Assembly: GCA_005779305.1 (NCBI GenBank)
Contig: SXJR01000118.1
Location: 1 to 39,616, forward strand
Direction: 5' to 3'
Source of the DNA: Myxococcales bacterium
GTDB taxonomy: Bacteria > Myxococcota_A > Polyangia > Haliangiales > Haliangiaceae
Length of the DNA: 39,616 nt
Shown: in pieces, positions 26,228 to 36,007 of the stretch
Layout: every line of letters begins with the position of its first letter
Position numbering within the stretch: position 1 is the stretch's first letter
Made by a program: the position numbers and the translations under genes
Notes under the pieces: generated by a model
What the model saw: the letters and a program-made list of their open reading frames with translations, nothing else
The model's database searches: none
What the model was told of the DNA's origin: nothing

Positions 26228-26812
26228 CTACTTGTAGCCGCGATCGAGCAGCATCCTGGCGCCGACCTCGAACGACGACGGCGGACCGACCTCGAACTCG
26301 AAGGCGTCGGCCAGCCGCGTGATCACGTTGAAGGCCCAGGCGACGTCGAGGGCCTCGATCACCGCCTGCCGGGAGACGCCGGCGGCCAGCACCGGCGCCA
26401 GGTCGGCGGCGGTGAGCCCGCGGTGATCCTTGGTCACCTTGGTGAGCATGCGCAGCGTGACCCTCACCTTCTCGGGCAGATCGGCGCGATCGGGATCGTC
26501 GAGCGCCGCCGCCACCGCCGCTTCACCGAGCACCTTCGACGCGACCGCGCCGTGGGCCTTCGTTCAAAACTCGCATTCGTTCTGCTTCGACACCCAGGCC
26601 GCGAACAGCTCGCGCTCGCCCACCGACCACTCCGACGGGCCCCGCATCGCGGTCTGGAAGACCTCGTTCATCGGCGCGCCGAACAGGTGCCGCTCGAAGC
26701 GCAGGGTCCGCACCACGTCGGGCGCGCGGTGCTTGCTCATGACGCGGATGAGCGCGAACAGCGCCTTGTTGCCGAGGCCACGGCCGCGCTCGATCGCAGG
26801 CAGCCGCATCAA
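26228..26812 (-). CDS. AhpD/CMD-family peroxidase-like protein, probable selenoprotein (CxxU; in-frame TGA)
   Basis: Read through one TGA, this is a 194-residue member of the AhpD/carboxymuconolactone decarboxylase family, helical proteins that reduce peroxides with a C-x-x-C pair and a nearby histidine. The active-site segment is N-E79-C80-E-F-[TGA]83-T-K-A-H87, so the TGA (26564-26566) takes the place of the second, attacking cysteine. The frame is the same on both sides and both sides match the family: WSVGERELFAAWVSKQ before, and EKVRVTLRMLTKVTK...AIEALDVAWAFNVITRLADAF-like helices after. A hairpin with a GGUC loop follows the TGA at SECIS distance. Translated conventionally it would appear as an 82-residue fragment and a separate fragment of about 100 residues. 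Its ATG overlaps the stop of the preceding gene. A nonsense mutation or sequencing error is the alternative, but the exact position argues for selenocysteine. Confidence 0.82.
26538..26551 (-). promoter_or_regulatory. SECIS-like hairpin for selenocysteine insertion
   Basis: On the minus strand, 5-bp arms GGCGC and GCGUC (one G-U pair) enclose the loop GGUC. A looser outer stem (CAC with GUG) is possible. The GU of the loop is 19-20 nt after the TGA. In E. coli fdhF, SelB recognises a loop containing GGUC with GU at 20-21 nt. The match in loop and spacing is close, though function is untested. Confidence 0.65.
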
Positions 26813-27147
26813 CCGGCTCCCGTGCCGCCGCCGTCGCGCGCAGCCAGCGCGGCGTCGAGCGCCGCCACCGCCGCGTCGTACTGACGCGTGGCCTGGCCGA
26901 TCGCGGTCGCGACGCTGAGCTCGAAGATGTGGTCGTCGTCGAGCCCGGCCGCGCGCAGGGCCGCGACGTCGTCATCGGTTACCTTGTACGCGGTGTCGCG
27001 GACCTTGACCACGTAGGCCGCCACCGCCGCCGGCGCCCCCGGCTCGGATTCACCATCGAACGCCGCCTTCCGCGCCGCGGGGCGCGAACGACCCCGTCCC
27101 TCGAGGATCGCGCGGCGCGCCACCGCCTTTAGCTCGTTGGTCGCCAT
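26809..27147 (-). CDS. Small AhpD/CMD-like helical protein without active-site cysteines
   Basis: This is a 112-residue protein. KVTDDDVAALRAAGLDDDHIFELSVATAIGQATRQYDAAVAAL matches the C-terminal helices seen in many AhpD/CMD proteins (V-T-D-x-D-V-x-x-L, then I-F-E-L), but the protein has no cysteine at all, so it cannot be an AhpD-type peroxidase alone. It overlaps the start of the selenoprotein candidate by 4 bp and follows the MshEN-REC-TPR gene by 9 bp, so the three should be made from one mRNA. A non-catalytic partner of the Sec-containing protein is a reasonable inference. ATG 27147 is preferred over the TTG just before it. Confidence 0.7.
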   Translation of the reverse strand: MATNELKAVARRAILEGRGRSRPAARKAAFDGESEPGAPAAVAAYVVKVRDTAYKVTDDDVAALRAAGLDDDHIFELSVATAIGQATRQYDAAVAALDAALAARDGGGTGAG

Positions 27148-29092: not shown

Positions 29093-29578
<486 letters not shown>

Positions 29579-29646: not shown

Positions 29647-29676
29647 TTGAATCGCCGATCGGGCGCGTGTTAGCGT
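29647..29676 (+). promoter_or_regulatory. Possible promoter TTGAAT-N18-TAGCGT of the macro-domain gene
   Basis: TTGAAT (29647-29652) and TAGCGT (29671-29676) are 18 bp apart, as in the promoters at 5540 and 6018. The ATG follows 10 nt after the -10 box. Confidence 0.45.
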
Positions 29677-29686
29677 GCCCGCGCGA

Positions 29687-30196
29687 ATGCAGGTTCACGT
29701 CGCTCGTGCGGAGCTCGGCACCCTTCCCGTCGACGCCATCGTCAATCCCACCAGCTCGCTCGGCATCATGGGCGGTGGGGTGAGCGGCGCCCTGCGCCGC
29801 ATGGGCGGCGACATCATCCAGCAGGAAGCCATGGCCGCCGCCCCGATCGCCGTCGGGGCCGCCATCATCACCAGCCCCGGCTCGCTGCCGTGCCGGTTCG
29901 TCATCCACGCGCCGACGATGGAAGACCCCGGCATGAAGATCCCGGCCGAGAACGTGCGCCGGGCCGCCCGCGCCGCCCTCATCGCCGCCGACGTGAAGCA
30001 GTTCAAGGTCATCGCCTTCGCCGGCATGGGTACCGATCTGGGCGACGTCCCCATGGACGAGGCCGCCCGTGCCATCGTCGAGGAGATCCGCGCCCACAAG
30101 CGCGCCTGCCCCGAGACCATCTACCTGGTCGACACCAACCAGGAGATGGTCGAGGCGTTCGAAGACGCCCTCCGAAACGCAGTCCAGAACCTCTAG
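29687..30196 (+). CDS. Macro-domain protein (ADP-ribose binding)
   Basis: This is a single macro domain of 169 residues, a fold that binds ADP-ribose or removes it from proteins or O-acetyl-ADP-ribose. VDAIVNPTSSLGIMGGGVSGALRRMGG is the N-terminal signature, with the asparagine of the usual V-N-A-A kept and the glycine loop intact. FVIHAPTMEDPG and AFAGMGTDLGDVPMDEAA correspond to the second binding loop. Whether it hydrolyses or only binds the ligand cannot be told. ATG 29687 is preferred to the GTG at 29675. Its stop codon is at the left edge of the MITE-like element, so the last codons may have been altered by that insertion. Confidence 0.88.
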   Translation: MQVHVARAELGTLPVDAIVNPTSSLGIMGGGVSGALRRMGGDIIQQEAMAAAPIAVGAAIITSPGSLPCRFVIHAPTMEDPGMKIPAENVRRAARAALIAADVKQFKVIAFAGMGTDLGDVPMDEAARAIVEEIRAHKRACPETIYLVDTNQEMVEAFEDALRNAVQNL

Positions 30197-30412: not shown

Positions 30413-30796
30413 TTGCAGCTCCAGGCCTATCTGCCAGCCGGGTTCGCCATCCTCTGCGCGCTCGGGTTCTGCGGCCTCTTCACCGCCCTGGCGGTGATGG
30501 TCGGCCCCCACGCCACCAGCCCCGACAAGCTCAAGCCGTTCGAGTGCGGCTCGGAGCCCATCGGCAGCCCTCGCGGCCGCTACTCCGTGAAGTTCTACCA
30601 GGTCGCAATCCTGTTCCTGGTCTTCGACATCGAAGCTGCGTTCATGTACCCGTGGGCCCAGCTGTTCGCCAAGCTGTCCCTGACCCCGGCCGGCGGCATC
30701 AGCATCTTCGGCTTCGCCGAGATGCTCGTGTTCGTCGCCATCCTGGTCGTGGCCCTGGCCTACGTCTGGCGCAAAAAAGCCATCGGTTGGGACTGA
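30413..30796 (+). CDS. nuoA: NADH-quinone oxidoreductase subunit A
   Basis: NuoA is a small membrane subunit of respiratory complex I, at the junction of the peripheral and membrane arms. The 127-residue protein has three transmembrane helices and the conserved loop KLKPFECGSEPIGSPRGRYSVKFYQVAILFLVFDIEAAFMYPW. The start appears to be TTG (30413), since no ATG or GTG occurs before TM1 and the length fits the family. A GGAG lies 20 nt upstream, too far for a good ribosome site. It is the first gene of nuoABCDGHI and starts 39 bp after the MITE-like element. Confidence 0.93.
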   Translation: MQLQAYLPAGFAILCALGFCGLFTALAVMVGPHATSPDKLKPFECGSEPIGSPRGRYSVKFYQVAILFLVFDIEAAFMYPWAQLFAKLSLTPAGGISIFGFAEMLVFVAILVVALAYVWRKKAIGWD

Positions 30797-30814
30797 CCGG
30801 GCGCGGAGATCCAA

Positions 30815-31327
30815 ATGCTGGAGCTCGTCACCACCAAGCTCGAGGACGTGGCCAACTGGGGCCGCAAGTTCTCGCTGTTCAGCTACCCGTTCGTCACCGC
30901 GTGCTGTGGCATGGAGTTCATGTCCGTGGCCGCGCCCAAGTACGACATCGCGCGCTTCGGCGCCGAGTTCCCACGCTTCTCGCCGCGCCAGTCGGACCTG
31001 CTCATGATCGTCGGCACGATCACCGAGAAGCAGGGTCCGGCCCTCAAGCGCATCTACGACCAGATGGCCGAGCCCAAGTGGGTCATCGCCTTCGGCGTGT
31101 GCGCGTCGACCGGCGGGTTCTACCAGAACTACCACGCCATGCCCGGCGCCGATCAGGTCATCCCCGTCGACGTCTATATCCCCGGCTGCCCGCCCCGCCC
31201 CGAGCAGGTCCTCGACGCGCTGATCCTCCTGCAGGACCGCGTCGCCCGCAAGGACGGCCACAGCCAGCTCCGGCTCAAGCGCGAGAAGATCGTGCTCGAG
31301 CAGAGCCGGGCCCTCGAGGACGACTGA
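30815..31327 (+). CDS. nuoB: NADH-quinone oxidoreductase subunit B
   Basis: NuoB carries the last iron-sulphur cluster, N2, which passes electrons to quinone. The 170-residue protein has the paired cysteines in FVTACCGMEFM, the third in FGVCAS and the fourth in YIPGCPPRPE, a full N2 set. A GGAG lies 8 nt before the ATG. It follows nuoA after 18 bp and nuoC starts 2 bp after its stop codon. Confidence 0.96.
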   Translation: MLELVTTKLEDVANWGRKFSLFSYPFVTACCGMEFMSVAAPKYDIARFGAEFPRFSPRQSDLLMIVGTITEKQGPALKRIYDQMAEPKWVIAFGVCASTGGFYQNYHAMPGADQVIPVDVYIPGCPPRPEQVLDALILLQDRVARKDGHSQLRLKREKIVLEQSRALEDD

Positions 31328-31329
31328 CC

Positions 31330-31893
31330 ATGTCGCAGAAGGTACTCGACGCTCTCAAGGCCAAGTTCGGCGACGCCATCATCGCCACCGAGTCGCAGCA
31401 CGGCGACGAGGTCGCGCTGGTCAAGCGCGAGAAGCTGAAGGACATCGCCACCTGGCTGCGCGACGACGCCGCCATGGCCTTCGACATGCCGGTCTTCTGC
31501 ACCTGCATCGACCTGCTCGACTGGCGCCCGGTCAAGGCGCCGGGCACGGCCTCGTCGGCGCGGCCGGCCTGGGATCCCACCGGCGACGGTAAGAGCCCAC
31601 GCTTCGAGGTGTGCTGGCAGCTCCGCTCGGTGCCCCATCGCCATCGCATCCGCCTCAAGGTCGCGCTCCACGAGAACGACGTGAAGGTGCCCAGCCTGGC
31701 GCTGCTCTGGCTCGGGTTCGACTGGCAGGAGCGCGAGACCTTCGACATGTACGGGATCGACTTCCAGGGTCACCCCGATCAGCGCCGGATCTACCTGTAC
31801 GACGAGTTCATCGGGCATCCGCTGCGCAAGGACTACCCCAAGGAGAAGCGCCAGCCGCTGGTGCGCCGCTCCGATCTGGTCGGAGACCACTGA
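31330..31893 (+). CDS. nuoC: NADH-quinone oxidoreductase subunit C
   Basis: This is the 30-kDa-type subunit of the peripheral arm, which supports NuoD. The 187-residue protein contains FRVCWQL-like strands (FEVCWQLRSVPHRHRIRLKV), then the family signature WQERETFDMYGIDFQGHPDQRRIYLYDEFIGHPLRKDYP. It is a separate protein, not fused to NuoD as in E. coli. The ATG at 31330 directly follows the nuoB stop; the open frame continuing upstream through nuoB is a shadow. Confidence 0.94.
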   Translation: MSQKVLDALKAKFGDAIIATESQHGDEVALVKREKLKDIATWLRDDAAMAFDMPVFCTCIDLLDWRPVKAPGTASSARPAWDPTGDGKSPRFEVCWQLRSVPHRHRIRLKVALHENDVKVPSLALLWLGFDWQERETFDMYGIDFQGHPDQRRIYLYDEFIGHPLRKDYPKEKRQPLVRRSDLVGDH

Positions 31894-31894
31894 C

Positions 31895-33154
<1,260 letters not shown>

Positions 33155-33166
33155 AGGCCCGCTGCC

Positions 33167-34765
<1,599 letters not shown>

Positions 34766-34783
34766 GGCCAAAGGCACAAGCGA

Positions 34784-36007
<1,224 letters not shown>

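Follow-up and report, generated by a model that had tools for sequence, protein, structure and literature searches.

A two-gene unit with an in-frame UGA

The window, by which we mean the whole 39,616-nucleotide stretch of DNA analysed here, belongs to a genome assembly (G000) of 8.08 Mb in 611 contigs that is 75% complete. Its minus strand carries two overlapping genes with the following features.

26809..27147, minus strand: AhpD-fold partner protein, 112 aa, without CxxC and, in the window's copy, without any Cys
26228..26809, minus strand: predicted AhpD/CMD-like selenoprotein gene (putative catalytic subunit), 193 aa with Sec82, stop TAG 26230-26228
26564..26566, minus strand: in-frame UGA, predicted from conservation among homologues to be read as selenocysteine, residue 82 of CxxU
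26537..26552, minus strand: predicted apical hairpin of a SECIS, with a stem of 6 bp and, after a gap of 17 nt from the UGA, a GGUC loop at 26546-26543

The selenoprotein gene is a single frame from ATG 26809-26807 to TAG 26230-26228, with coding sequence ending at 26231. Around the TGA (26566-26564) it reads E-C-E-F-[TGA]-T-K-A-H, and both flanks are open. A first-pass annotation of this DNA had set the TGA at the second Cys of the AhpD/CMD motif and numbered it residue 83. Re-reading the sequence, we agree with the motif position, but the residue is number 82, because the orthologues begin at ATG or GTG, one codon after TTG 26812-26810. At the position of ATG 26809, 21 of 30 aligned loci (the window's included) have ATG and 8 have GTG, while L045 has neither.

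Across the six frames of the window, we counted 61 TGA triplets flanked on each side by at least 80 open codons, 11 of them also with a hairpin, and 219 of the 815 TGA triplets in the window are followed by a hairpin meeting loose SECIS rules. In a window this rich in GC, long open frames around a single TGA are nothing unusual, which makes the single-sequence case weak. The abundance of such open frames would equally suit a pseudogene or a sequencing error, in which the TGA is a point mutation or a misread TGC or TGT. Likewise, a GTG-to-stop ORF at 26228-26533 would suit two genes, the first ending at the TGA and the second beginning at GTG 26533. What lifts this TGA beyond chance is that the same codon is kept across relatives, together with protein similarity on both flanks.

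Conservation of the UGA codon

A search of 144 genomes, counting the window's own, gave matches in 51; we aligned the 30 best places, one of them the window itself, with both strands read. The site carries TGA in 28 of the 29 orthologues from related genomes (29 of 30 with the window counted). The sole exception, L039 in genome G093, has TGC, with Thr replacing the first active-site Cys. A scan of named genomes, from which the best 80 of 320 relatives were kept (L050-L129; forms outside these could add Sec/Cys changes), gave TGA in 38, TGC in 35, TGT in 7 and nothing else. The two sets overlap, and their counts are not summed. TGA carriers among the 80 named loci include five Nannocystis records, and Cys carriers include Kribbella, Nonomuraea, Actinomadura, Chitinophaga and Acidicapsa; the nearest named rows on the tree are Myxococcota assemblies, one labelled Kofleriaceae. 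The first-pass reading implied TGA or Cys in relatives and no ordinary residue, and this is what both the 29 orthologues and the 80 named relatives hold. The in-frame UGA thus takes part in the Sec/Cys alternation that marks a bacterial selenoprotein.

Protein similarity on either side of the TGA persists down to 42% identity in the 30 aligned rows, in keeping with the earlier claim that frame and family similarity continue unbroken across the codon. Between the window and its four nearest relatives, dN/dS is 0.11-0.28 upstream of the TGA and 0.28-0.44 downstream, which indicates purifying selection on both sides. Over all 406 pairs the medians are 0.58 and 0.74, with some values above 1, and we ascribe these high ratios to saturated dS. 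The same TGA in 38 named records from other genomes makes a misread TGC or TGT untenable. Its recurrence in these and in 28 of 29 other relatives (the sets overlap), the conserved protein on both sides and the low dN/dS of close pairs all argue against a pseudogene or error, to which we give next to no credence.

Two separate genes are, in our view, hardly credible either. According to the structure model, the UGA would split one helical CMD domain within its catalytic motif, the 42 named Cys relatives run through without an internal stop, and codon choice is conserved right after the UGA, as described below.

A SECIS hairpin downstream of the UGA

A 6-bp stem with a GGUC loop, 17 nt past the UGA, can form in all 29 TGA-bearing rows of the alignment, with 174 of 174 cells paired. 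Stem pair 2 is G-C in 27 rows and A-U in 2, and pair 3 is G-U in 23, C-G in 5 and A-U in 1. Two stem pairs are thus changed on both sides, a compensatory covariation. Pairing was lost when the partner strand was slid by 1-3 columns, and RNAalifold recovers the same helix. The named genes show the same association: every one of the 38 TGA genes can form the six pairs and has GGUC, compared with six pairs in none of the 42 Cys genes, five pairs in 6 and GGUC in 4. One Cys gene, L082 from a Hyphomicrobiales bin, keeps five of the six pairs and GGUC, possibly as a relic of a selenoprotein ancestor.

Codons in the hairpin stretch are also fixed beyond amino-acid need. Val89 is encoded by GTC in all 29 TGA rows (background 0.44), as Ala88 and Ala90 are by GCG (background 0.63). 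Just before the UGA, codon 81 (Phe, window 26569-26567) shows a striking preference of its own, being TTT in 22 of the 28 Phe-bearing rows (background 0.04 among the other Phe codons of these genes).

When the 51 nt starting at the UGA are folded, the lowest-energy structure contains the whole hairpin in 25 of the 29 rows, L028, L040, L041 and L042 being the others. In the window the hairpin alone has an energy of -8.1 and the 49-nt SECIS region one of -17.7 kcal/mol, the latter no better than shuffled sequences (z -0.34), and the lower stem varies across rows and is not conserved. An Rfam search of the locus returned two sub-threshold matches, neither of them a SECIS. As set out in the accessible part of PMC13188914, the bacterial SECIS model has a loop of 3-9 nt, a stem of 4-16 bp, a distance of 16-37 nt from the UGA, G in the first two loop positions and a minimum free energy of at most -7.5. 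The window's hairpin fits this model, with its 4-nt GGUC loop, 6-bp stem and spacing of 17.

Selenocysteine machinery in the genomes

The first-pass annotation had pointed to selA, selB, selC (tRNA-Sec) and selD as genes that a selenoprotein would need in the same genome, and we found all four in the window's assembly. The selA match scored 530.9 bits and selD 305.5 bits; selB scored 293.9 bits (cut-off 242.25) over profile positions 2-352 of 581, within an open frame of length 685. tRNA-Sec scored 70.7 bits (gathering threshold 47) and was called by ARAGORN as tRNA-SeC with anticodon TCA. No tRNA genes were found within the window itself. SelD of this genome (L048) is itself read through one TGA, in a GGGU motif.

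Machinery and TGA occur together across genomes. Of 34 genomes that carry a TGA orthologue (E < 1e-17, the window's own among them), 33 have selA over cut-off or tRNA-Sec and 28 have both, compared with selA or tRNA-Sec in 55 of the 110 other genomes (Fisher p 1.3e-7). In the named genomes, selA exceeds its cut-off in 33 of 38 with TGA vs. 21 of 42 with Cys (p 7e-4); the relatedness of the genomes, which are not independent samples, makes both p values too small. Neither selA nor tRNA-Sec is present in G093, which carries the lone Cys orthologue. The one TGA genome that lacks both, G027, has an assembly of 1550 contigs with 73% completeness, and the five of 38 named TGA genomes without a selA match over cut-off are mostly draft assemblies, with L090 among them showing a partial match.

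A frame that continues past a UGA could also reflect plain read-through or a general change of code (UGA = Trp) rather than Sec insertion. However, the genome encodes a tRNA-Sec whose anticodon is TCA, the relatives we examined show Cys at the site and never Trp, and the full SECIS hairpin tracks the TGA. Moreover, 9 of the 29 TGA-bearing rows end in TGA, as does the window's partner gene. We therefore regard read-through or recoding as very improbable. The machinery, the Sec/Cys alternation and the covarying hairpin together uphold the earlier proposal of a selenoprotein, and, judged from sequence comparison, the protein is almost certainly one.

Fold, active site and family of the enzyme

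The active site is E67-x11-C79-xx-U82-xxx-H86, in which none of E67, Sec/Cys82 and H86 varies across the 30 aligned proteins and C79 hardly does. This is the spacing that we take to be that of Mycobacterium tuberculosis AhpD, Glu-x11-Cys-x2-Cys-x3-His. The first active-site Cys is kept in all 38 named Sec forms; in the 42 named Cys forms this position is Cys in 21, Ser in 15 and Thr in 6. The structure model of the selenoprotein has a pLDDT of 93.4, and its best PDB matches are the AhpD-like proteins 3c1l and 6k40 (TM 0.74-0.77), with 6k40 also the best sequence-profile match (E 7.8e-24). The M. tuberculosis AhpD structures (1knc, 1gu9, 1lw1) share the active-site spacing and match the fold at a TM of 0.41-0.49 of the query, with E above 0.4. 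They have two thiols where our protein would have Cys and Sec, and 3c1l, 6k40 and 2pfx are structurally closer. The modelled AhpD-like/CMD fold and the Glu-Cys-Cys(Sec)-His active site are thus found together, and we consider a redox enzyme of AhpD type likely.

Curated family models capture this protein poorly. With Cys in place of Sec, it just reaches the Pfam CMD gathering threshold (PF02627, 23.2 bits vs. 23), and its relatives range around that value (L039 at 33.6 bits, L046 at only 11.3). It matches five NCBIfam models, every one below its cut-off, the best being the TIGR01926 peroxidase-related enzyme at 67 bits vs. a cut-off of 81.8, so the “peroxidase-related” label denotes resemblance. 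Because none of the matched NCBIfam models was reached at its cut-off by any of six scanned subfamily members, a pipeline built on curated models is likely to break the gene in two or drop it.

The first-pass annotation had called CxxU AhpD-like proteins a known class of selenoprotein, and the literature from 2005 on bears this out. In the accessible parts of these sources, AhpD-like CxxU selenoproteins are reported from the Sargasso Sea in 2005 (PMC1088965) and from an ocean survey in 2008 (PMC2398784), and AhpD-like or CMD-like selenoproteins appear in two reviews (PMC9312934 and PMC13188914, the latter with TIGR01926 and PF02627 rows). Our protein is a member of this class, sharing, as far as the accessible text of PMC1088965, PMC2398784 and PMC13188914 describes it, the AhpD/CMD domain, Sec as the second active-site residue and a downstream SECIS-like hairpin. 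It differs from the known set in that scores of the four scanned Sec forms lie at 58-67 bits, under the TIGR01926 cut-off of 81.8, and in that its gene is tied to a partner gene. A catalogue example such as MCB9421940.1 might belong to the same subfamily. Searches for selenoproteins or selenocysteine in myxobacteria, Nannocystis and Kofleriaceae found no literature, and those for Myxococcota found none that was relevant.

Other families share parts of this arrangement. NF041238 (AhpD_rel_CFYUT, Sargasso Sea hypothetical protein 1) also has CxxU on an AhpD-like domain, and residues 60-171 of our protein match its profile positions 216-331. However, the score is 38.3 bits vs. a cut-off of 175, and NF041238 spans 357 positions vs. 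193 aa here. A second AhpD-like CxxU family from the same class of bacteria (L133-L140, L145) shares CxxU, but its motif is C-x-Y-U, only 1-3 of the 6 pairs of the window-type hairpin form at that place, and the two members scanned exceed the TIGR01926 cut-off (140 and 135 bits). We found no separate partner gene for these loci. This candidate family occurs in some of the same genomes (e.g., G136 and G140). TIGR04030 and TIGR04029 (perox_Avi_7169, CMD_Avi_7170) are, judging from the locus-tag numbers in their names, also a neighbouring AhpD/CMD-like pair. By contrast, our selenoprotein scores 30.3 vs. a cut-off of 233.15, and the scanned partners score at most 19.4 vs. 100.75.

The upstream partner protein

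The overlapping upstream gene was absent from the first-pass annotation. Its stop codon, TGA 26811-26809, shares one base with the selenoprotein ATG. The protein matches part of the second half of TIGR01926 at 23.6 bits, below cut-off, and has no meaningful match in Pfam (best E 0.084). Its structure model (pLDDT 94.2) matches the same AhpD-like structures as the enzyme, with the best 13 at a TM of 0.65-0.71 of the query and weak Foldseek E-values (best 0.028).

Using a profile built from 21 partners (the window's and 20 of the 30-locus set), we located the partner immediately upstream of the enzyme gene in 78 of the 80 named loci and in all 30 other loci, of which those 20 and the window had entered the profile. 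In the two exceptions, the partner lies 255 bases upstream (L076) or is cut by a contig end (L097). It stands beside Sec and Cys forms alike. A Cys is present in 9 of the 21 aligned partners and 54 of the 79 named ones. One partner in each set has CAAC, the named one being L067, and CxxC is absent from the other 78 named partners.

Two more distant relatives encode natural fusions, with the partner joined to the selenoprotein's C-terminus: L131 (genome G101, 319 aa; partner score 69.5 bits at 212-309) and L132 (G035, 318 aa; 61.8 bits at 214-317). No separate upstream copy was found for either locus. Because of these fusions, we argue for a joint function of enzyme and partner. Made by coupled translation, the partner would probably serve a mixed complex as a subunit with a structural or substrate-binding role, and a physical complex of the two proteins is, on balance, what we favour.

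Apart from the partner, a crude ORF scan of the 80 named loci revealed no neighbour recurring widely enough to suggest another function. The widest cluster, of minus-strand upstream frames at 32 loci, had the look of antisense frames, and on inspection by eye the upstream ORFs at ten loci proved unrelated in kind.

Proposed chemistry

The best explanation of the locus as a whole is, with high probability, that its two genes form a unit for a selenium-dependent AhpD-like redox enzyme. SelB would bind the GGUC hairpin and bring Sec-tRNA-Sec to the UGA, yielding the 193-residue protein. With Glu67 and His86 activating it in the manner of AhpD, Sec82 would then attack a hydroperoxide or another oxidised substrate. 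The resulting selenenic acid would be resolved by Cys79 to a selenenylsulfide, which a thiol donor would reduce. We infer these roles, Sec82 attacking and Cys79 resolving, and see an even chance that peroxide is the true substrate.

The selenoprotein could instead act other than as a peroxidase, e.g., as a peroxiredoxin-reducing adaptor, decarboxylase, dehalogenase or disulfide reductase on the AhpD fold. AhpD-fold chemistry is varied, the PDB matches include the debrominase Bmp8 (6ohi, 6ohj), and the 1knc entry describes AhpD as “a novel enzyme with thioredoxin-like activity”. In addition, Ser or Thr replaces the first Cys in 21 of the 42 named Cys forms, so the chemistry may vary within the family. 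Still, the AhpD Glu-Cys-Cys-His spacing is kept, and in the crude ORF scan no neighbour besides the partner recurs widely enough to point elsewhere. We take a non-peroxidase role as a serious contender, though we lean somewhat against it.

Evolution of the Sec/Cys site

In an unrooted tree of 81 rows built with the Sec/Cys site masked, a single branch (100/97) splits the 39 Sec rows from the 42 Cys rows, so the site changes once, compared with a mean of about 27 changes after shuffling. For a rooted tree, we used 13 distant relatives as the root, added 7 Sec rows and dropped 8 Cys rows, which were actinobacterial and mostly near-identical to others. The 34 remaining Cys rows form one clade (99/96) nested within Sec rows. 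With the outgroup included there are three Sec/Cys changes, of which one is inside the ingroup, and the ingroup and outgroup join between long branches. The simplest reading of these trees is that one Sec-to-Cys replacement occurred and then spread among phyla, as seen in the 80 relatives nearest a Sec protein, with long root branches and with phylum labels of assembled genomes that may err.

The partner changes alongside the enzyme. In an alignment of 79 named partners, the column of the window's Ala80 holds Cys in 40 of 42 Cys modules vs. 9 of 37 Sec modules. Where Ser or Thr replaces the enzyme's first Cys, 20 of 21 Cys modules have the partner Cys. This pattern is confined to a single region of the tree, and its instances do not count as independent evidence. 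Because the nine Sec modules with a partner Cys (L059-L061, L063, L065, L067, L072, L091 and L094) adjoin the Cys clade, the partner Cys may have come before the Sec-to-Cys change.

Taken jointly, these patterns are consistent with a two-subunit AhpD-fold selenoenzyme, its CxxU catalytic subunit working with a degenerate partner, in which Sec is ancestral. A partner Cys would have been gained in one Sec lineage, and one later Sec-to-Cys replacement would have allowed the two-gene unit to reach lineages without Sec, with the enzyme's resolving Cys lost in half of the sampled Cys forms. We advance this sequence of events tentatively, as slightly short of an even bet. That the partner Cys took over as the resolving thiol, hence the loss of the enzyme's first Cys to Ser or Thr, seems rather doubtful. 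If the two-subunit reading is true, the locus encodes a selenoenzyme with a pseudo-enzyme partner. It would also offer a clean test case of Sec-to-Cys change, because nature supplies Sec and Cys versions of the unit to compare, some having the resolving Cys or the partner thiol and others lacking them.

Bacterial thiol-redox selenoproteins are mostly thought to have gone from Cys to Sec. In the accessible part of their study, Zhang and colleagues (PMC1794560) counted 33 Cys-to-Sec vs. 15 Sec-to-Cys events, and for AhpD-like proteins (COG2128) two Cys-to-Sec and no Sec-to-Cys, with the order of the columns read from their totals. We found no description of the tied partner, the fusions, the partner Cys or the Sec-to-Cys direction in the accessible text of the AhpD/CMD selenoprotein literature, including PMC13188914, PMC2398784, PMC9312934, PMC1088965, PMC1794560, PMC1242214 and PMC12013277, with subscription journals mostly outside this coverage.

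Other features of the window

A dispersed 12-base element, GTGGGTGACACC, has 24 copies with at most one mismatch vs. 0.24 expected. The copies lie between 909 and 25075, with several at 2301-2446, and the element is possibly a dispersed short repeat of the genome. A macro-domain protein (29675-30193) lies beside a CarD-like regulator (29093-29575), and respiratory complex I genes occupy 30413-36004, with four subunits checked by Pfam.
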